Source: a virus
Strand: one strand, 5' to 3'
DNA length: 57,778 nt
IMG/VR virus record: IMGVR_UViG_3300032164_000017
Location: 1 to 57,778 of that record
Shown: one piece after another, positions 16,501-36,913 of the stretch
How positions within the stretch are numbered: the stretch's first letter is position 1
Layout of the letters: every line of letters begins with the position of its first letter
Program-made: the position numbers and the translations under genes
The notes under the pieces: model-generated
The model's input: the letters and a program-made list of their open reading frames with translations, nothing else
Told to the model about the DNA's origin: nothing
Database searches by the model: none

Positions 16501-17032
16501 TCCACGTAGTGTGAATGAGATTTTGAACGGCGATCAACCGGAGATTCTGAATCAATCTGGCAGCGGGGTTTACTACGACCGTGCACGGAAGTGGTTGGTA
16601 GTACATTGGCCTGCTGCCAAAGGTGAACTGGTCCGTAACAAAGAACTTCGTGACAAGTCTTCGGACCTCCTGGTGCAGTACGCATCTCGCAGTCCCTACT
16701 GTGTACCTGATGAAGAAGCACGGCGTGATGGCGTGTTTGCGCGCCTCCACAAGTACATGGGTGCAGCCATCTTCAGAAACTCGTACACGGTGTTCGATGT
16801 TACGACCATCGTGAATGCAGCTGCACAGGTACCCAAAGCTAAAGGTCGCGAAGACATCGACATGCTCGATGAGTACCGTGAGAAATTTTCAAGAGTCGTC
16901 ACACCGAAGCCGCCGGTACGTGCGAAAAAAGCGGAGGTCAGTGGTACAAGTAGTGGCTCTTCACCCGTTACTGTCACGTCAGATGCGTCTTCGGACGATG
17001 ATGATGATGACGATGGAGGTTTGAACTATTGA
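13487..17032 (+). CDS. Primase-helicase fusion protein
   Basis: 1181 aa. The N terminus is a DnaG-like CHC2 zinc finger (C56, H59, C77, C82). A TOPRIM catalytic fold follows: E312 and E314 in VEGEFDAL, then D362, D364 and D365 in GDLDD. The C-terminal half has a P-loop NTPase with Walker A ASSGKSS (K757) and Walker B CLDEFED (D804, E805), presumably the helicase. The protein ends in an Asp-rich tail. I start at the ATG at 13487 because GGGGAGGA lies nine bases before it. Base composition switches sharply near 14,880, between the primase and ATPase halves, so the gene may be a recombinational joining. Confidence 0.85.
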   Translation: MPGKKGGKQAQSSKTSTSAIKQIWGQIDANDWLHILRTARPSTNWTYARRQIKGKCPFHEDSQASFIIDLDRQQAKCWGGDCGKYYWDPVRFFKDLNEGNMTYPKALLELKDRFNIKISKHLISEVGKRQRHRDMKKLLFEVMRGELIDCVAMRRMPSPEPDLFYARDAVTYLEQRGIKDMYHFLPIGVFPPKLRLERLINNRLQLMPKEKSQYFKGVWEEIATYLDAPWNDTAWMGALVFFTGSSPNDVCKLKLRKVPHRQGNMYMPQDFSKDICFVHDDNELNNGAFGLFGVPPYWQHIGKENQTFHWVEGEFDALTIMYNQFIDGGQILSMVFAGGGSSTCGLDALKGFRFDMGYVVGDLDDKGPAFIQKVLEQTSHLPVKVFEWPDEYKRDLQNKPLDKNDPDKAVIMRGLEKFQRELRDETNFTPPHVWCLAGASKEMSGIDRDDIRQLTNKAANWGRYVRDESEQHVFVNELSKRFGVSSGQILSEIKVGDEDEDAFIERLRATFASRLQPMHAYRTATSHMMRVWDRQTQDIYEFAIAEKPRILTTISAMSGKDPLQFVKDEVGEPSFLEVDEDESKSTYIARSNKCADYISYAITRLSNALPADSLVRRMGAGLHCVAPTLDDPDEIFRLYLVNGTALYRGDYNDLGNVVWRRMPGPCDGSIVIHAEGAIRPRKLLPFINSEADLNKQSTIGLREMYDTLFGMISKGWVFKQHVVTSELLAAATMLLPVAACVPRQPIFILNAEASSGKSSFIGGFIGRTNLPSVNVIHQAYYTDNYTVAGIRQSSNHGSFCICLDEFEDKGGNDRRSGVIRGVLQLFRGHSNEEGTTLMGTAHGVAQEFRFHCMGFVAGIRGLEDIADISRFIQIEMNKQVHRESPETALLREFGAERIQEVRNNLPLLMFQHAKEFREAYYRIVEEYRGGGGLEFGKMTRSLSHFYPMMAIMSICGKDYHKFIHSYFKQHRRNLERVASLALNSDLLDDVFYTPAIRMPTLEGSRPRSVNEILNGDQPEILNQSGSGVYYDRARKWLVVHWPAAKGELVRNKELRDKSSDLLVQYASRSPYCVPDEEARRDGVFARLHKYMGAAIFRNSYTVFDVTTIVNAAAQVPKAKGREDIDMLDEYREKFSRVVTPKPPVRAKKAEVSGTSSGSSPVTVTSDASSDDDDDDDGGLNY

Positions 17033-20000
17033 GTTCGTTGGATAAAAAACCACCATGCAGCGCTTGCGCCTTTTATCATGAGAGGCGCATCGCTGCACGG
17101 GGGTCCAACAAAGCGCTCATTGTTTTAGTGGGCGATTGTCCTTCGCCACAGTTCCCTGAGGGAGGAGAACCCTTCCAGGATCGTAACGGTATCTCGATAG
17201 GCATGGCTCTGAAGCGTCTTCAGGTGTACTACAACACTTTGCCCAACGGTCCGGCACGGTGGTTTAATCTGAAGCCCTACAAGACCTACGTGGTGCAGTG
17301 CGTCCACGTCGACAAACCTAAAAAAGATATCGTCACACGCTGTCGTCAGACCTACCTTGACGTCGACCTCGCCATCATCAAGCCACGTCTCGTCATTGCC
17401 TGTGGCGCCATGCCTTTGCAAACGCTCTTGCGTGACCCGAAAGCGGCGTTCGAAGACAACCGTGGTTCATTCATCGCACGTACCTTATCTGTGGGTGAGA
17501 GTGAACAGCACCCCTACGAACTCTTCACAACGTATTCTCCCAAAGCGGTGCTCGCGAAGCCTGGTCTCTACGATGAGATGTATCGTGATTTACAGCGTGC
17601 ATTCCTGCACGCAGAAGGTTGCGACGCGGTTACAGTCATTCCGGAAGAGACGCTCCGCAAGAATTATCGCTTTCCCGATACGGTCCAAGAAGTCAAAGAA
17701 GTGTGCGATGAAATACTCACATACGCCAATAACGGTGCGGACCCGAACAAACACTTCATCGCGGTAGATATCGAGACCTCGTGTCTGGAAATGCACGACC
17801 CCACAGCGAAGATCATCATGGTCTCTTTCGCCTGGGCGCGCATGCGAGCGACGTCCATCTTCATCGATCATCCACGGAGACGCTGGTCTCCAGAAGATCG
17901 AGAACAGATCGTTGCACATGTGCGACGAGTACTAGCATCTGACAAACCCAAAGTCCTTCATCACGAGAAATTCGACCGGCAAGGTATCGTGCATCGATAC
18001 GGCTGGGAATTGAACAACGTGGTCTGGGACACCATGGGCGGTGAACACCTCCTCGAAGAAGACAAGAAGGGTGCGTATGGACTGAAGATACTCACTCGTT
18101 CGCGTCTTCCCGAGTACGCAGGTTACGAAGACAAGGTCGCTGAGATTCGCGAAGAGCATGGTGGTGGTACGCGGGCTGATGAAGCCAAGCGCTTTCGCAA
18201 AGCAACGCTCGAGTATCAAAAGGCGTGTACAGAGTACACCACTCTGATGAGCGAATACGACCTCTCCTACGGTACCTACCTGACGGAACTTACGGAGTGG
18301 GAAGCCAAAAAAGACGCAGAGAAGTTGCGTGCGGATGCTGCACGCAAAGCCAAAGAGCCCGACAAGACATTGCGGTCCATGAACAAAGATGCGTATGGAC
18401 CGAAACCAAAGAAACCGCACAAGCCGAAGGAGCCCAAAGAACCTGTACACCATGAGCCCTTCGACTTCACGATGATCGATCCAGAGGATCTGAAGCTGTA
18501 TGCGGGTGTTGATGCAGACGTGACGCGTCAACACGCCGTCACACAGAACACGCGGATGGCCGCAGAGCACAAGAAGGATGTGGCTGACTGCCTACGCTTC
18601 AAGAAGACACCTCCGCTGCCTTTCAAACGGCTCATGAGCACGCACGTCATTCCGACCAGTCGTACGCTAGCGGACATCGAGTTCACGGGTTTCCCTGTGG
18701 ACTTGCCTTACCTGGAAGAGCTGGATGCAAAACTCGAAATTAAAGTAGCCGAAGCGCAGTCCAAGCTTTTTGAGATGGCGGGCGGTGAGTTTGTGATCGA
18801 TAACCCAGCGGCGCTGGGCAAGATCATGTTCAACGACGGGTTCTACCAGAACGGGCAGAAGGTTCTGGTTCCTCGTGACAGCAACATCAAGCACACCAGT
18901 CGAGGACAGACCAAATCCGATGAGGGAACGCTGAAGTACATTGCGAACACGTATGGCTTCGACTTCCCGCGTCTGATCTTGGACTATCGGAAAGCTCGCA
19001 AGGCGCGGGCACCCTTCCTCATCAACGTTCGTGAGCATGCTCGCTTCGATCGACGCATGCATGCTTCATTTCACTTAGCGGGTACGGGTACAGGGCGGCT
19101 GTCTTCGTCCAATGAGAATTTGCAAAACATCCCCAAGAAGCTGGCGGGAGTCAATATCAAGAAGATCTTCATTCCGCCTCCGGGATACACGCTCATCAAC
19201 ACAGATGCGAAGGGCGCAGAGATTCGCATCTTCGCTACCTACTCCCACGATGAAAAGTTGATCAAAGCCATCCTTGATGGTCTCGATACGCACAGTTTCT
19301 TCACTTCTCAGGTCTTCGGTGTCACCTACGAAGATGTCGAGATGGCGCGTGATCTGTGCGACCGCTACTACGCGGGTGAGCCCATTGATGGAGCGATCGT
19401 CAAAAACGCAGAGGCGCTGGTCCGCAAACGCACCAACTGCAAACGTGTGGTCTTCGGTACTCTCTACGGGGCCATGGCTGCCAAGATTGCAGAGACCGCG
19501 GGCATCTCGCTCGAGGAAGCTCAACGGGTCATCGATTTGATGTTCAAGATGTTCCCGTCGATCCCAGCCTACATCGAGAGCACCCAGAATGAAGTACGCT
19601 TCTTCAACTGGGTGGCCACACTCACAGGCCGCAAGCGACGTTTTCCGCTTTCGGTAGTGCGCATGTTCCGCAACCGCTGCTTCCGGCAGGCGGTGAATTT
19701 CAAGATTCAGAGCACCAGTTCAGACATCGTGCTCTGGGTCATGAATCAAATTCACCCGGTTGTGAAGCATGATCTGCGGGGTCAATTCCACGCCACTGTG
19801 CACGATTCGATCGTGTTCTCGGTTCCACACGCGTACGTGCCTCAGGTCAAGGACATCATGTACGAGTACGGAACTCGACGAGCACAGATTGAATTTCCCT
19901 GGCTTTCTGTGCCTTTCTTGTGGGATGTTGAAGCAGGTCCTTCCTACGGTGAAGTCACCGACGTCAACAAATACCTACAAGGACAGCTCTATCATGACAA

Positions 20001-20073
20001 AATCACAGCGGCCGAAGAAGTCATCACCGACGAAGAAATCCGAGACGAAATCAACGAGTCCTTGGCAAGTTAG
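17029..20073 (+). CDS. Family A DNA polymerase fused to an N-terminal uracil-glycosylase-like Fe-S domain
   Basis: 1014 aa from a TTG with GGAGGT eight bases upstream, overlapping the primase stop. Residues 1-200 resemble family 4 uracil-DNA glycosylase: C10, C13, C91 and C105 match its Fe-S ligands, and GEPF and IKPRLVIACG match its fold. However, the usual catalytic-loop HP is replaced by SP (TYSPKAVL), so base excision may be lost. The DEDD exonuclease follows (D247, E249; HHEKFDRQGI; YAGVDADVTRQ). The polymerase carries motif A with D726 (TDAKGAEIRI), motif B K805...F809...Y813-G814, and motif C H925-D926. A charged Lys/Pro-rich insert lies at about 400-475. This is the likely replicative polymerase. 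Confidence 0.92.
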   Translation: MSSLDKKPPCSACAFYHERRIAARGSNKALIVLVGDCPSPQFPEGGEPFQDRNGISIGMALKRLQVYYNTLPNGPARWFNLKPYKTYVVQCVHVDKPKKDIVTRCRQTYLDVDLAIIKPRLVIACGAMPLQTLLRDPKAAFEDNRGSFIARTLSVGESEQHPYELFTTYSPKAVLAKPGLYDEMYRDLQRAFLHAEGCDAVTVIPEETLRKNYRFPDTVQEVKEVCDEILTYANNGADPNKHFIAVDIETSCLEMHDPTAKIIMVSFAWARMRATSIFIDHPRRRWSPEDREQIVAHVRRVLASDKPKVLHHEKFDRQGIVHRYGWELNNVVWDTMGGEHLLEEDKKGAYGLKILTRSRLPEYAGYEDKVAEIREEHGGGTRADEAKRFRKATLEYQKACTEYTTLMSEYDLSYGTYLTELTEWEAKKDAEKLRADAARKAKEPDKTLRSMNKDAYGPKPKKPHKPKEPKEPVHHEPFDFTMIDPEDLKLYAGVDADVTRQHAVTQNTRMAAEHKKDVADCLRFKKTPPLPFKRLMSTHVIPTSRTLADIEFTGFPVDLPYLEELDAKLEIKVAEAQSKLFEMAGGEFVIDNPAALGKIMFNDGFYQNGQKVLVPRDSNIKHTSRGQTKSDEGTLKYIANTYGFDFPRLILDYRKARKARAPFLINVREHARFDRRMHASFHLAGTGTGRLSSSNENLQNIPKKLAGVNIKKIFIPPPGYTLINTDAKGAEIRIFATYSHDEKLIKAILDGLDTHSFFTSQVFGVTYEDVEMARDLCDRYYAGEPIDGAIVKNAEALVRKRTNCKRVVFGTLYGAMAAKIAETAGISLEEAQRVIDLMFKMFPSIPAYIESTQNEVRFFNWVATLTGRKRRFPLSVVRMFRNRCFRQAVNFKIQSTSSDIVLWVMNQIHPVVKHDLRGQFHATVHDSIVFSVPHAYVPQVKDIMYEYGTRRAQIEFPWLSVPFLWDVEAGPSYGEVTDVNKYLQGQLYHDKITAAEEVITDEEIRDEINESLAS

Positions 20074-20908
20074 GACAACCAGCGTCGCTGGACACACGCT
20101 GGAGGTATCACGCTTCGAGCTAGGCAAGCGAAGTGCAACGTGTGAGATCGCGGAGTCCGAGATCGATAAGATTCCGGTCGAAGCGATCATCAGCAAGGAA
20201 CCCGTGCCCCCTGCGGTCTTTGCAGATGCCGAGCCTCCCACGGTAGTAGCGCCTGGCAAAGAGGAAGAGAACGCGGCGCTGTGGAAGCAGTACCGTGAAG
20301 CCAAGGATCGTTTCGAAAAGGCGCACGCCAACGCCGTGCCCATGCTCAAGGTCAACCTGTGGGTTCCTGTCACAGTGGTAAAGAGTGTGAAGATGGATGG
20401 TCACGCCGTGCGCATCTTCCATACGCCGCGTGGTCCCATCATGGGCATGGTGACGAGTGAAGACTCCACCCGCATGTGGCTCTACTCACCGTGTTTCCTG
20501 GACTGCAATGTCCAACGAGGTCGTGTTCATTACCTCCCCATAGCGTTTGCCGGTTACGAGTTCGTGTTGTACAAGACTGGCATCGGGGAGAGTGTGCCGC
20601 AGGAAGCGGAGATCGAAGGCTACCCGCATTTCGTGGAACGCAACCGTGCCGGGGACTACACGTTCCGGATGAAGGCAGCGTATCATCACATCGATGCGGA
20701 CTATCCCGAAGACTCCAAGCTCATTTCGGCAGACATGGCGCCGCGAGACGCGCTCCTAGGGCTGTTGCTGACAACTGATGCACGTGAGCAACAGATGGTT
20801 AACCAAGCACGTCAAGCACAAGCGCAACAGCAGGCGCAACTAGCTGCACAACAGGTTGCGCAGCCTACTGCACAGCAAGAAGCACCTGCTGCTTCTGCCG
20901 CTGAGTAA
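19994..20908 (+). CDS. Hypothetical protein after DNA polymerase
   Basis: 304 aa, not recognised. I start at the ATG at 19994 (AAGGACA upstream), which overlaps the polymerase end by 80 bases in another frame. A later start has no clear ribosome site. The N terminus is basic Lys/Ser-rich, the middle (about 30-250) looks like a folded alpha/beta region, and the C terminus is Gln/Ala-rich with VAQPTAQQ-type low complexity. As the last gene of the replication operon it may be a replication accessory, but that is inference. The RNA-like array follows 35 bases later. Confidence 0.75.
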   Translation: MTKSQRPKKSSPTKKSETKSTSPWQVRTTSVAGHTLEVSRFELGKRSATCEIAESEIDKIPVEAIISKEPVPPAVFADAEPPTVVAPGKEEENAALWKQYREAKDRFEKAHANAVPMLKVNLWVPVTVVKSVKMDGHAVRIFHTPRGPIMGMVTSEDSTRMWLYSPCFLDCNVQRGRVHYLPIAFAGYEFVLYKTGIGESVPQEAEIEGYPHFVERNRAGDYTFRMKAAYHHIDADYPEDSKLISADMAPRDALLGLLLTTDAREQQMVNQARQAQAQQQAQLAAQQVAQPTAQQEAPAASAAE

Positions 20909-20942
20909 TGTCCTGCATTGTCCGTAATTGTCGATTCAGACA

Positions 20943-21113
20943 TAACTCGCAAGAGTTAGGTGGCGTAACGCCACCACTGTTCACTCTTGCCCTTTGGCTA
21001 GTGTGAATAGTTGGTAGGGCCCGAGCATTTGCGAAAATGCGCGCTCGAGCCGCGGCCGAACTCCGATGCTATATCCGAAGGAGGCGGCCCCGCGGGCCCC
21101 TGCAAACGTAGTG
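20943..21113 (+). ncRNA. RNA-like unit 1
   Basis: TAACTC-GCAA-GAGTTA (20943-20958) abuts GGTGGC-GTAAC-GCCACC (20959-20975). Next is a 9-bp stem, 20976-20984 with 21003-21011 (one G-T pair). Then a GGGCC/GGCCC closing helix (about 21017-21021 with 21095-21099) encloses two arms. The first arm has a GCGA tetraloop (21027-21038). The second is G+C-rich and pairs CTCC 21061-21064 with GGAG 21080-21083. The unit ends in TGCAAACGTAGTG. This is the most complete member of the array. Confidence 0.55.
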
Positions 21114-21124
21114 AATCGACACAG

Positions 21125-21261
21125 CGAGTCTCTTGAACTGGATAGATACTTTCATTGTACTCGGGTGGCGTAACGTCACTCATTGATGGGTTCGCACGGC
21201 GAACCGAAAGTCAAGGAACACATCGAAGACCTCGTCGAACTGGGGGCCTTGCAAACGAAGT
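21125..21261 (+). ncRNA. RNA-like unit 2
   Basis: CGAGT (21125-21129) pairs with ACTCG (21159-21163) and leads directly into GGTGGC-GTAAC-GTCACT (stem with two G-T pairs, loop 21170-21174). A 7-bp stem follows, GGTTCGC-ACG-GCGAACC (21189-21205). CAAGG 21212-21216 can pair with CCTTG 21247-21251. The unit ends in GCAAACGAAGT. The stem before the pentaloop hairpin is longer and less regular than in the other units. Confidence 0.45.
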
Positions 21262-21343
21262 ATTCAGTTCAGAGTGCGTACCAAGCCGCCGCCACCAACG
21301 GTGGCAACGTATCGCGAGCTAAGTAGAGTGACGCTCTAGATCT

Positions 21344-21485
21344 GGGTGGCAACACCCGACGGTGTAACGCCGTCATCGTTATTGCTGAGCCTTGCACACG
21401 CACGGCTCTGCGCGTGATATGTGTGGCTCCACGGCCACCGCCCTCGCTAGCACTCGTGCGGAGGCCGATTACGCCACAACGAAGT
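21344..21485 (+). ncRNA. RNA-like unit 3
   Basis: GGGTG-GCAA-CACCC (21344-21357) abuts GACGGT-GTAAC-GCCGTC (21358-21374). This has the same two loops in the same order and spacing as unit 1 but entirely different stem bases. Several local stems follow (GAGCC/GGCTC, GTGGC/GCCAC), and the unit ends in AACGAAGT. Just upstream, GCCACC-AAC-GGTGGC (21291-21305) and TAGAG-TGACG-CTCTA (21324-21338) form additional hairpins. Confidence 0.5.
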
Positions 21486-21516
21486 AGAGCGTTGAACACA
21501 GGTACACTCTAGATAA

Positions 21517-21672
21517 TCCACGTCAGGTGGAGATGGCGGAACGCCATCATGCTTTCATCGAGGGCAATGTTTCCCCCAACTTCCCGATCTCGATCCCTCG
21601 CTTACGACATTTTCATACAGCCGAAAATGTCGAGACTCGGTCTCTCGCACGGGAAGCCGTTTGAAACGAAGT
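21517..21672 (+). ncRNA. RNA-like unit 4 with possible pseudoknot
   Basis: TCCAC-GTCAG-GTGGA (21517-21531) abuts GATGGC-GGAAC-GCCATC (21532-21548). CGAGGG (21559-21564) can pair with CCCTCG (21595-21600), while CTTCCC (21580-21585) can pair with GGGAAG (21651-21656). These two helices cross, giving a potential pseudoknot. A 9-bp stem (21606-21614 with 21623-21631) and the final AACGAAGT complete the unit. It ends five bases before the terminase stop. Confidence 0.5.
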
Positions 21673-21676
21673 GGAG

Positions 21677-23227
21677 TTAACCTGTGAACTGAAGATCAAG
21701 GAGCACAACCTTCGCAGCCATCCATGCGAATAGCTGTGCATGGAAACAGTCATCAGGCTGTGTGGGTGCATGCCGCCATACCTTCTGTCCCATCAAGGTG
21801 ACCTCTTCATAGATGTTGAGAGCATCCTCGATGGGTACGCTCATGTACTCAAGCTTTGGGTAGATCACACCGCCCCGCTTGAGGACCATGAAGAAATTGT
21901 CCATGAGCGTGGTGCGATCGGCGTAGTAGCTGTTGGCGTCTTCGTTCCAGACGAGTGGCGCAGCTTGAGCTTGATACTTGAGCTGCGCCACTCGATTGTT
22001 GCCCAGGCGCGCTTTGAGCAGGTTGTTCGCAAGGTGACCTTCACCCCGGTCCCCAATGACGAAGGAGCAGTTGTAATTGTTGAAGACTTCCGCGACGTCA
22101 TCCACGACTGCGACAGGGTTTGTTACCGGGTAAATTCGGAAGTAGAGGGTCTTGAGCTTGTGGTCCTGGGTGATACCGAAGATCCACACAACGGTTCGAC
22201 TGACACCCTCTGTACCGCCTCCAGACCAATCTACGCCTCCGACGACGTGACTGAACATCTCTTGATTTGCGGGAGGCGTACGGTAGATGTCGTACTCCTT
22301 GCACAGACTTTGCAACTCTTCTTTGCTGATGAGGCGCGCACCCAGCGCGTCAGAAACACCCAGCACCTCGTTCTTGAACTTGGTGGTCGAATAGCGCTCG
22401 AGCTTGTTTACAATACGCTGCCAACGTGAGGGAATCTCGTTGTTGAGTGGCAGCATGGGCTGCGAGATGTGGAATGCTTTGAGCGTAGACCCCGGGTTGA
22501 AGTCGTACCACTGCCCTTCGCGAGGTTGGAGTCGGTGGCTGCACTTGAGACAGATGGGCCCGGTTTTTCCGATGGAACGGTCTGTCTCGATGAAGTTCCA
22601 GCGCCCACAGCCTTCGCACTTCATGATCCATTCGGTGCGTGAGCTAATGGACCACAGGTACTCGATGGTGTTTTCCATCGTCTTGGGCGTACCTGCGTAG
22701 GTCTCGTAGCCGTAGTTTGAGTTGCCCATGCACTCGTTGATGACGGGGATCACTTCTTCGTAGAGGATGTCCTGGACCTCGTCGTAGCACACACGGTCGG
22801 CTGTATTGCCGCGAGCGCGATCGGGATCGCTAGCTGCATACGTGAATTTCACCTCGGCGCCGTTACGGAACATGCGCAACATTGTACGGTGGGTGAAGTC
22901 AGTCGCAGTCCAGTACTTGCGAATGAGCGGCGAGTAGAAACATGTCTTTCCGAAGCGCGTGTTCGAGAACGTCTGTGTCTGCTCTTCTGACGGAGACACG
23001 TAGAGGTTCCGGAAGTGTGGAATCCCAATGCTCTCACAGATGATGAAGTTACACAGCGAAGTGCTCTTCGCGACCTGCCGGCCACACTTCAACAGCAGTC
23101 CCTGGTACTGACCATCGTAGATGTCAGGATAGAAGGGATAATCGACCAGGGTAAACGGAGCACCACTCAAATGGAGCAGCTTCTCAGCTAGTTGTGACCG
23201 CCGTTGCGCTGGAAGGTCATCAGTCAT
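21677..23227 (-). CDS. terL: Terminase large subunit
   Basis: 516 aa. It is the ATP-driven motor and nuclease that packages phage DNA. ATPase motifs are Walker A KCGRQVAKST (47-56), Walker B CYDE (D149, E150) and the coupling motif TYAGTPK (176-182). A zinc knuckle C204, C207, C226, C229 sits between the ATPase and nuclease, as in lambda GpA-like terminases. The RNase H-like nuclease shows D333 (GGVDWSGGG), D393 (IGDRGEG) and D492/D493 (PDDCFHAQ). The ATG has no clear ribosome site and lies 34 bases from the divergent plus-strand gene. No small subunit is recognisable in the window. Confidence 0.93.
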   Translation of the reverse strand: MTDDLPAQRRSQLAEKLLHLSGAPFTLVDYPFYPDIYDGQYQGLLLKCGRQVAKSTSLCNFIICESIGIPHFRNLYVSPSEEQTQTFSNTRFGKTCFYSPLIRKYWTATDFTHRTMLRMFRNGAEVKFTYAASDPDRARGNTADRVCYDEVQDILYEEVIPVINECMGNSNYGYETYAGTPKTMENTIEYLWSISSRTEWIMKCEGCGRWNFIETDRSIGKTGPICLKCSHRLQPREGQWYDFNPGSTLKAFHISQPMLPLNNEIPSRWQRIVNKLERYSTTKFKNEVLGVSDALGARLISKEELQSLCKEYDIYRTPPANQEMFSHVVGGVDWSGGGTEGVSRTVVWIFGITQDHKLKTLYFRIYPVTNPVAVVDDVAEVFNNYNCSFVIGDRGEGHLANNLLKARLGNNRVAQLKYQAQAAPLVWNEDANSYYADRTTLMDNFFMVLKRGGVIYPKLEYMSVPIEDALNIYEEVTLMGQKVWRHAPTQPDDCFHAQLFAWMAAKVVLLDLQFTG

Positions 23228-34137: not shown

Positions 34138-34156
34138 GTTGCTTGGAGGGTGGCGT

Positions 34157-36913
34157 ATGCCGGATCTGGAGATCTTTGCGAATGTTGACATTGTTCCCGA
34201 AACAGTAGCTGCTGTGACAGTTCAAAAGCGCGGCCGGCTCTCCTACGAATCGCGTTTCTGCCCCGATGGGCAGTATCCCTACACGATGGTGCAATGGAAA
34301 ACCACCGATGTGTCACTCAAAGATCAAGACACCGGCGCCATCATCTTCGAGCAACTCGGGGTAGAAGTTCCCATTACATGGTCTGACCGCGCTGCGCTCA
34401 TTGTGGCGCAGAAGTACTTCTACGGCAAAGAAAGCACAGCAGAGCGTGAGACGAGCGTGCGACAGGTTGTAGGACGTGTAGTCAACCGCATCCTTGCGTG
34501 GGGCCTGGAACAGAGTTACTTCGCCACCGAAGATGATGCTGTCGCATTTGCAGCCGACCTCACATATCTTTTGCTCACCCAGCGCGGCGCGTTCAACAGT
34601 CCTGTGTGGTTTAACCTCGGTATCGATGCACGTCAACAACAAGTCAGTGCCTGCTTCATCAACTCTGTTGCTGACAATATGACGTCGATCGCTGCGTTGC
34701 AAGAAACCGAGACCATCATCTTCAAGCAGGGTAGCGGGTCAGGCGTAAACCTATCTGCGTTGCGCAGCAGCAAAGAACGTCTCTCCGGGGGTGGTATCGC
34801 ATCGGGACCCGTATCGTTCATGCGCGGGTTAGATGCGTGGGCAGGCATCGTGAAGTCGGGTGGAGGAACACGACGAGCAGCTGCGATGCGGGCACTCAAC
34901 GCGAACCATCCGGACATCGTTGAATTCAGCACCTGCAAGGCCGAACAGGAACACGTCGCACAGCTTCTTGTGAAAGCAGGGCTCTCTGCTCACTTCGATG
35001 ACCCCAAAGGCGCCTATGCGCTCATTCGCTTCCAGAATGCAAACCACTCCATCCGTGTCACCGATGAATTCATGACCAAGGTGCTCTATGCAATGGAGCA
35101 CCCTGATGAAGAGGTTCTCTGGGACTTGCACGCGGTGGTAACCGAAGAAGTAACTGATCGTATCCCCATCCTTGGTCTCTGGGAAAAGATCTGCCAGGCG
35201 GCGTGGTCCTGTGGGGATCCCGGCATTCAGTTCGACAGTACGTTCAATGCCTGGCATACCTGTCCCAGTGATGGTCGCATCAACTCTACAAATCCATGCG
35301 GTGAGTTTGCGTTCTTGGACGATAGCGCCTGCAACCTAGCCAGCCTCAACCTGATGCGCTTTCGCAAGCTCGATGGCACACTTGACATCGAATCACTGAA
35401 GCAAGCTGTGGACGTCTTCGTTCTCGCTCAAGACATCCTGATCGATAAAGCGGACTATCCGACAGCTGCAATCAAAGAGAACTCAATGAAGTACCGCCCA
35501 CTGGGCCTCGGCTACGCCAATCTCGGTGCGTATCTCATGTCGATAGGGCTGCCTTACGACAGTGACACAGGTCGTCAGATCGCATCGGAAGTGACGTCAG
35601 TTATCACATCACAAGCGTACCTCGCATCGGTGAATCTCTCGATCACTCGAGGTTCCTTCGAAGCATACGATCGCAATCGCGCGGCCATGCTCGAGGTCAT
35701 GCGCAAGCACATGACCGCAGCACAGGAGCGCGATCTCGGATCCGTCTCGATCTGGGATGAAGTCATCGAACAGGGTGCACTACATGGGTTCCGCAATGCA
35801 CAGGTTACACTGTGTGCACCTACCGGAACGATTTCTTTCATGATGGACTGTGACACGACCGGCGTGGAGCCTGAGGCCAGTCTTTACAAGGTAAAGAGCC
35901 TGGTGGGTGGCGGTACAGTCGTAATGGAGAATCGCATTGTCGAGATGGCTCTCGATAAGCTCACTTACCAACCTCCGACGCGCAAAGAGATCCTGCGCTA
36001 CCTCGCACGTCACAAGCATCTTGACGGGTGCAGTCAGCTTCTCAAAGAGCACCTGTCTGTGTTCGACTGTGCGATTCCGTCTGCGGGTAAGCGTGTGCTG
36101 AGTCCCATGGCCCACGTGAAGATGCTTGCAGCAATTCAACCGTTCATCTCAGGCTCCATCAGCAAGACCGTGAACCTACCTCATGAAGCAGCGCCCGAAC
36201 AGATCGGAGAGGTCTACATCAAGGCTTGGCAACGAGGCATCAAGAACATCGCGGTCTATCGTGACAACTGCAAAAAGAGTCAGCCGCTCATTACCGCAGT
36301 GCTGATGCCTACCGTAGAAGATGCAGCGCCGCGTATCGTAAGACGCAAGCTCGCCAACCATCAGACGAACATGCATCGTATTCGGTTCGCGTTTCAGAAC
36401 ATCAAGGGCTACATCCTCGCTACGCCCTATGAAGACACGGGAATGCCTGGGGAGATTTTCGTACGTCTTTCGAAAGAAGGTTCAACCATTCAAGGTCTTG
36501 TTGATGGCTGGGCTCAGTCTATCTCCTATTGTCTTCAGTACGGAGTTCCTCTTGCTGTCCTTGTGCAGAAGTTCAGTCACACCAAGTTCGAACCCATGGG
36601 CTATTCCGCAGACCCAGACATTCGCTTTGCGCATTCCATCTACGACGCGATCGTGCGCAAGCTTGGTGCAGTTTTTCTACATGCACAGATGAGCAACGGT
36701 CACGACGATAGCGCAGACGCACCGGGCGTTTCACTAGCAGAAGAGGGTTTTATTGTGGACAATGACACAGACCCAGCGCTGGATCTGCAACGTATGACAC
36801 CCATGAGTACGTATATGGATGCACCCCCATGTACTGAGTGTGGTGCCATCATGGTTCGCAACGGGTCCTGTTACAGTTGTTCCACCTGTGGTGCAACATC
36901 CGGATGTAGCTAA
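34157..36913 (+). CDS. nrdJ: Class II (adenosylcobalamin-dependent) ribonucleoside-diphosphate reductase
   Basis: 918 aa from the ATG with GGAGG; a TTG at 34139 is rejected. It reduces ribonucleotides to deoxyribonucleotides. The active site shows N379, C381 and E383 (NPCGE), the partner cysteine C166 (SACFINS), and the allosteric-region GSGSGVNLSALRSS. No small subunit gene is present and the C terminus is a zinc ribbon (CTECG...CYSCSTCG) as in NrdJ proteins, so class II is favoured over class I. The host or environment must supply B12. The gene lies next to RuvC. Confidence 0.9.
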   Translation: MPDLEIFANVDIVPETVAAVTVQKRGRLSYESRFCPDGQYPYTMVQWKTTDVSLKDQDTGAIIFEQLGVEVPITWSDRAALIVAQKYFYGKESTAERETSVRQVVGRVVNRILAWGLEQSYFATEDDAVAFAADLTYLLLTQRGAFNSPVWFNLGIDARQQQVSACFINSVADNMTSIAALQETETIIFKQGSGSGVNLSALRSSKERLSGGGIASGPVSFMRGLDAWAGIVKSGGGTRRAAAMRALNANHPDIVEFSTCKAEQEHVAQLLVKAGLSAHFDDPKGAYALIRFQNANHSIRVTDEFMTKVLYAMEHPDEEVLWDLHAVVTEEVTDRIPILGLWEKICQAAWSCGDPGIQFDSTFNAWHTCPSDGRINSTNPCGEFAFLDDSACNLASLNLMRFRKLDGTLDIESLKQAVDVFVLAQDILIDKADYPTAAIKENSMKYRPLGLGYANLGAYLMSIGLPYDSDTGRQIASEVTSVITSQAYLASVNLSITRGSFEAYDRNRAAMLEVMRKHMTAAQERDLGSVSIWDEVIEQGALHGFRNAQVTLCAPTGTISFMMDCDTTGVEPEASLYKVKSLVGGGTVVMENRIVEMALDKLTYQPPTRKEILRYLARHKHLDGCSQLLKEHLSVFDCAIPSAGKRVLSPMAHVKMLAAIQPFISGSISKTVNLPHEAAPEQIGEVYIKAWQRGIKNIAVYRDNCKKSQPLITAVLMPTVEDAAPRIVRRKLANHQTNMHRIRFAFQNIKGYILATPYEDTGMPGEIFVRLSKEGSTIQGLVDGWAQSISYCLQYGVPLAVLVQKFSHTKFEPMGYSADPDIRFAHSIYDAIVRKLGAVFLHAQMSNGHDDSADAPGVSLAEEGFIVDNDTDPALDLQRMTPMSTYMDAPPCTECGAIMVRNGSCYSCSTCGATSGCS

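Follow-up and report, generated by a model that had tools for sequence, protein, structure and literature searches.

A tandem array of P1-closed domains beside a viral terminase gene: a candidate modular phage RNA family without a match in Rfam 15

The DNA between an open reading frame and the convergent gene for the large terminase subunit (terL) of a virus holds an array that we read, with better than even confidence, as a structured plus-strand noncoding RNA from a family without an Rfam 15 entry, built of tandem autonomous domains that would each be a binding module within a multivalent scaffold or binding platform. Comparison of sequences supports the RNA family itself well, and a scaffold or binding-platform role is the probable one. 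A plus-strand transcript of the array would fold into tandem domains, each closed by a helix termed P1; the conserved loop and junction letters would form a tertiary or protein contact, each domain would be one binding module, and in the infected cell the whole array could then serve as a multivalent scaffold or binding platform. The conservation of loop and junction suggests such a contact in each domain, and the tandem copies suggest multivalency. This modular phage RNA family is preferred because it accounts for all the observations.

The array fills the sole noncoding gap of at least 250 bases (20909–21676) in the window, that is, the whole stretch of 57,778 nucleotides analysed. Upstream it is bounded by the stop of the open reading frame 19769–20908 (plus strand), for which no family match was found, and downstream by terL. 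The last helix reaches about position 21686, antisense to the 3' end of terL. The features are as follows.

17029–20073, plus strand: UDG-exonuclease-PolA fusion; in relatives, the gene next upstream of the array is usually its homologue
20909–21686, plus strand: whole putative RNA array, intergenic, with four tandem units, its 3' end antisense over the last terL codons
20929–21121, plus strand: unit 1, with P1 TGTCGATTCA (20929–20938) / TGAATCGACA (21112–21121) and junction G ... AACGTAG (21105–21111)
20943–20958, plus strand: P2 of unit 1, TAACTC-GCAA-GAGTTA
20959–20975, plus strand: P3 of unit 1, GGTGGC-GTAAC-GCCACC, a G-NNA-C triloop
21133–21272, plus strand: unit 2, with P1 TTGAACTGGATA (21133–21144) / TATTCAGTTCAG (21261–21272), P3 at 21163–21181 and AACGAAG at 21254–21260
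21291–21328, plus strand: tail-only submodule, hairpin GCCACC-AAC-GGTGGC (21291–21305), then TAAG and the repeated 3' arm TAGAG (21324–21328)
21329–21494, plus strand: unit 3, with P1 TGACGCTCTA (21329–21338) / TAGAGCGTTG (21485–21494), P2 GGGTG-GCAA-CACCC at 21344–21357, P3 at 21358–21374 and AACGAAG at 21478–21484
21497–21686, plus strand: unit 4, with outer helix CACAGGT (21497–21503) / ACCTGTG (21680–21686) and P1 ACTCTA (21506–21511) / TGGAGT (21672–21677)
21517–21531, 21532–21548 and 21665–21671, plus strand: inner parts of unit 4, respectively P2 (TCCAC-GTCA-GGTGGA), P3 (GGAAC loop) and AACGAAG
21677–23227, minus strand: terL (phrog_675), the convergent neighbour and the query for relatives

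The polypeptide encoded at 17029–20073 combines uracil-DNA glycosylase, 3'-5' exonuclease and family A DNA polymerase domains. Elsewhere in the window, 34139–36913 (plus strand) encodes a class II (B12-dependent) ribonucleotide reductase.

Folding of the 768-nt region is stronger than that of its shuffles, with a z-score of -7.05 for the plus strand and -4.05 for the minus strand. The global minimum-energy fold is poorly kept between the window and L001, a relative whose terL is 95% identical (72 of about 253–280 pairs in common); the whole-length fold was therefore dropped as a structure and a domain model was adopted. The scan of the window for promoters and terminators stayed at chance level (1 terminator found and 0.9 expected).

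All four hairpins with a GTAAC or GGAAC loop that a sequence-only reading of this DNA had picked out are present (the P3 hairpins above, each of 7 bp with a G-NNA-C triloop), with 204, 195 and 174 bases from one to the next, in line with the spacing it gave, and GCAA hairpins directly abut P3 in units 1 and 3. The repeats it listed are there as well: AACGAAGT at 21254, 21478 and 21665, absent from the rest of the plus strand of the window, its variant AACGTAGT at 21105, and CTCTAGAT at 21334 and 21507, ahead of the P3 hairpins of units 3 and 4. The hairpins of its unit are thus real and its extent was drawn too small: P1 closes the unit, and AACGAAG is the 3' side of the P1-closed junction. 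In unit 4 P1 is shorter and is lengthened by the outer helix out to 21686, and the P2 loop is not of the GNRA type. The idea that GNRA loops are confined to the plus strand is only mildly favored by the relatives, where 4 lie on that strand and 1 on the other.

Comparison with L001 shows stems that change while staying paired. In unit 2, two pairs of P3 change from G-C to A-T and from G-T to G-C, and one pair of P1 from G-T to G-C; in unit 1 the P2 loop changes from GCAA to GCGA and the P3 loop from GTAAC to GAAAC. Where the window has one tail-only submodule, L001 has two.

Relatives were found via the terminase, starting from six close IMG/VR loci and extending to 80, and from each of them the slot was extracted, which runs from the upstream gene (most often polA) to terL. 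This yielded 36 non-redundant IMG/VR slots of at least 250 bases, about 24 kb in all (24.5 kb in the triloop count), and most of the 36 contain such units. Perfect G-NNA-C triloop hairpins of at least 6 bp number 53 in the 24.5 kb of slots against 0.4 in shuffles; 4 were counted in 42 kb of upstream coding DNA, and none in 54 kb of terL on the same strand. Outside these IMG/VR loci, a DNA similarity search of isolate phages gave nothing beyond chance, no terL relative was found in bacterial genomes, and a scan of the whole genome of Salmonella phage Arash, the isolate with the closest terL (33%), showed no array. As a separate observation on the loci near terL, the DNA polymerase gene of L016, on the RNA-sense strand, appears to hold a mini-intein that starts with C-V-S-E-N-T and ends with V-N-H-N before S-S-S-D-E-N-M-Q-N; the stretch that it splits is continuous in L015 and L017.

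The domain that emerges is enclosed by P1, a long-range helix of 6–12 bp whose arms lie 100–200 bases or more apart. In most cases the last base of the 5' arm is a purine and G comes next, and (A/C)G stands just before the 3' arm, within the consensus AACNHAG (AACGNAG in the window). The interior usually has one hairpin, then the abutting P3 (6–8 bp, G-N-(A/T)-A-C triloop) flanked by purine-rich sequence on its 5' side and U-rich sequence on its 3' side, followed by variable arms and the tail. A single closed domain of 150–180 bases is found in L031, L032, L034, L025 and L026; the number of domains differs between arrays, and a genome may hold several arrays. The stems of P1 and P3 have wholly different letters between units with complementarity kept. 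Thus the P1 arms GTCGATTCA, GAGAACTTA, TTGCTGCTTA, CTATTGTCG and ACTTCACTTA share no sequence, and each is fully complementary to its own partner.

Since MAFFT cannot align unrelated stems, the search relied on a descriptor, with shuffles as the control, and not on a covariance model. The descriptor P1+G...P3...(A/C)G+P1' gives 54 matches in the 36 slots (24 kb) against 0.1 in Markov shuffles; the P1 partners were picked by complementarity, and P1 covariation rests on this shuffle control, not on a homology alignment. Outside the slots, 296 kb of the same strand yield 8 matches. The opposite strand yields 9 over 320 kb, and within the window the descriptor matches at the array only and on the plus strand only. 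When P1 was chosen by length alone, as the longest helix enclosing each P3 with the flanking letters ignored, the next base was G in 38/58 cases, and the 3' arm was preceded by AG in 25/58 and by CG in 12/58 (37/58 together). Tail positions -7 to -5, which played no part in selection, read A-A-C in 42/66, 35/66 and 35/66 units, respectively. Inspection by eye for pairing between the two free loop letters and the two free tail letters revealed no consistent pattern. The proposal of a new noncoding RNA class made from the letters of the window holds up in the relatives, in which loops, junction letters and pairing are kept while stem letters change. The letters of the P3 loop are lineage-specific and not universal, because the lineage of L038, L040 and L044 has GTTCC or GTACC; the loop conservation expected by the sequence-only reading applies to the GNNAC lineages and fails in this one.

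Within P3, the non-Watson-Crick pairs read on the proposed sense strand comprise 16 G-T/T-G and 5 A-C/C-A (p = 0.027), so that the wobbles are mainly G-U on that strand, which fits RNA rather than DNA. The sense bias of terminator-like sites in the relatives (9 vs 1) is on the side of RNA as well, although several of these sites are P3 hairpins. A mismatch test over all slot hairpins found no strand bias (14 vs 14), and folding z-scores over 22 slots are alike on the two strands (mean -5.4 vs -5.2), unlike those of the window. The wobbles bear on a DNA-level explanation, namely a replication origin, a pac/cos site or a recombination site made of DNA hairpins beside the terminase. The inverted repeats are strong and terL and polA are the neighbours, as such an element would have it, but besides the one-strand wobbles the P1 arms lie 110–190 bases apart, the slot is below 100 bases, with little or no sequence, in many relatives, and such arrays are also found elsewhere in the genomes, among tRNA genes for instance. 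We regard a DNA element as very improbable, and the origin or packaging site next to the terminase that was suggested earlier is not supported by these comparisons.

The further arrays were seen when nine relatives were taken whole or nearly whole and scanned. Arrays away from terL were found in G014 (64.2–64.8 kb, 4 units), in G001 (101.1–101.8 kb) and in G012, where one at 132.0–132.5 kb has 3 units followed by GAGCCCGTGCAACGCGGGCTCTTTTTTT, with an intrinsic terminator at its end, and another at 22.1–22.3 kb lies on the same strand as two flanking tRNA genes. Single units were found at 89.0 kb of G001, 13.1 kb of G012 and 8.2 kb of G015, among others. A second location, array B, is shared by G014, G012 and G015 in conserved synteny, with homologous flanking genes (39–62% identity) and a dNMP kinase adjoining. 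With regard to other features of these genomes, the 198-kb G001 has a stretch of about 7 kb with 38 tRNA genes and a tmRNA (L098, its positions 100001–120000), G012 also has a tmRNA (L137), and G014 contains a gap of 1,760 bases without long open reading frames at 107572–109331 (L148). A tRNA or tmRNA array was discarded as an identity for the units, as ARAGORN detected none in the window and none in 20 terL-slot loci.

These positions also weigh on a packaging RNA that would work with the neighbouring terminase in the way of phi29 pRNA. The phi29 pRNA is a single short RNA, and Rfam includes the phage pRNA family. Both are structured phage RNAs, the pRNA being tied to packaging and the window array adjoining a packaging gene, and the array holds its place beside terL across about 50% terL divergence. 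Nevertheless, the array is multi-domain with no constant number of units, arrays lie elsewhere in the same genomes and so are not tied exclusively to the packaging motor, relatives with a similar terL have a slot without an array, and no Rfam match was obtained; a phi29-type identity was rejected, and a packaging role appears highly improbable. Just as slight is the chance that the array is a set of self-cleaving ribozymes processing itself into units of about 150–200 nt, a possibility raised earlier: unit length and the strict junction letters would fit it, but none of the self-cleaving families of Rfam matches, nor was any cleavage motif recognised.

A more serious, though still unlikely, alternative is that the arrays are 3'-UTR elements, in which the domains form the structured end of the upstream mRNA and would stop 3' exonucleases or insulate one operon's transcription from another's. 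Most of the arrays looked at, which are up to 1.5 kb long, begin shortly past the stop of a same-strand gene, and the terL slot lies between convergent genes. Terminator-like sites in the relatives are 9 in sense and 1 in antisense orientation, the sense ones occurring in several lineages and several of the sites being P3 hairpins with a U-rich tract, in keeping with the U-rich sequence directly 3' of P3. However, a terminator can do without a conserved triloop, an AACNHAG junction or P1 closure over 150 nt, and the length of the arrays also speaks against this explanation. So does a promoter-like box, GGTA(T/C/A)AA(G), which in many lineages stands between the upstream stop and P1, 1–25 nt past the former and about 5 nt before the first P1; by its position it may be a phage-specific promoter of an RNA starting at P1. 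Examples are seen in the terL slots of L015, L018, L053, L058 and L063. The box was not found in the window array, and GGTAYAAG was discarded as a part of every array, since many lineages have it in the terL slot but it is missing from the window and from array B.

The repeated P3 hairpins call to mind a protein sponge of the CsrB/RsmY type, which would titrate a host or phage RNA-binding protein. Such sponges and the present arrays have in common many hairpins with one loop motif and unrelated stems, and the copy number differs among relatives. The loops of the slots read GTTAC, GTAAC, GCTAC, GCAAC, GAAAC and GATAC, with a few others, that is GNWAC and not the GGA of CsrA ligands, so the array was not assigned to that type; the hairpins here are set in closed multi-helix domains whose P1 and AACNHAG junction are also conserved, features that a sponge made of plain hairpins would not require, and one lineage has the GTTCC/GTACC loops. 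A sponge is thus a doubtful reading, less likely than a 3'-UTR element.

Returning to the modular RNA family, some arrays contain a single P1 5' arm (head) and several exact copies of the 3' arm (tails), each after its own hairpin and AG. The GGTACTG head of L063 faces eight CAGTGCC tails, the CAGTTCA head of L002 five TGAACTG tails and the TCGTCTG head of G001B four CAGACGA tails; L064 has four tails per head and L060 three. About 0.01 is expected by chance for each of these sets (8, 5, 4, 4 and 3 copies). The window has a simple form, with TAGAG at 21324 and 21485, TGGAG at 21672, and heads CTCTA at 21334 and 21507; the head of unit 3 is a further possible partner for the TAGAG of the tail-only submodule. 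As one head facing many identical tails cannot pair with all of them at once in the same molecule, either the pairings alternate inside one molecule or several molecules share them. We tentatively propose a class of repeated-domain phage RNA in which one P1 5' arm pairs with several identical 3' arms, which could give switchable intramolecular forms or a multi-molecule RNA network or cage during infection. Dscam pre-mRNA, in which a docking site faces several competing selector sequences, works alike; the comparison is of mode only, this being a phage RNA with no splicing, and no homology is claimed.

No match to Rfam 15 at the gathering threshold was found for the window and 31 loci, the covariance models of GOLLD, ROOL, phi29-type pRNA and ribozymes included, and nothing appeared on the array region up to E = 5, GOLLD again included. 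A literature search found no description of such an array RNA. GOLLD and ROOL are the nearest known kind, both being large ornate phage RNAs of unknown function that often lie near tRNA genes (PMC12286853). GOLLD is phage-encoded, at least 800 nt long, with many helices, a conserved 3' part and variable arms; ROOL is a phage or prophage RNA of about 660 nt with no known protein partner (PMC12286853). One array here (in G012) likewise lies among tRNA genes. However, the present RNA would consist of a small domain in tandem and in varying number, with P1 closure and a G-NNA-C triloop; neither GOLLD nor ROOL is described as a tandem repeat of one domain in PMC12286853. The novelty would lie in the RNA family and its architecture, large phage RNAs as such being already known.

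GOLLD and ROOL belong to a small set of large structured phage RNAs, for none of which a function is known. Because a simple constrained module recurs here in varying number and at several sites per genome, minimal one-domain constructs can be made and probed directly, and the size of the module suits in-line probing and cryo-EM. The strict junction rule, the free stems and the arrangement of one head with many tails make concrete predictions on tertiary contacts and competing pairings.
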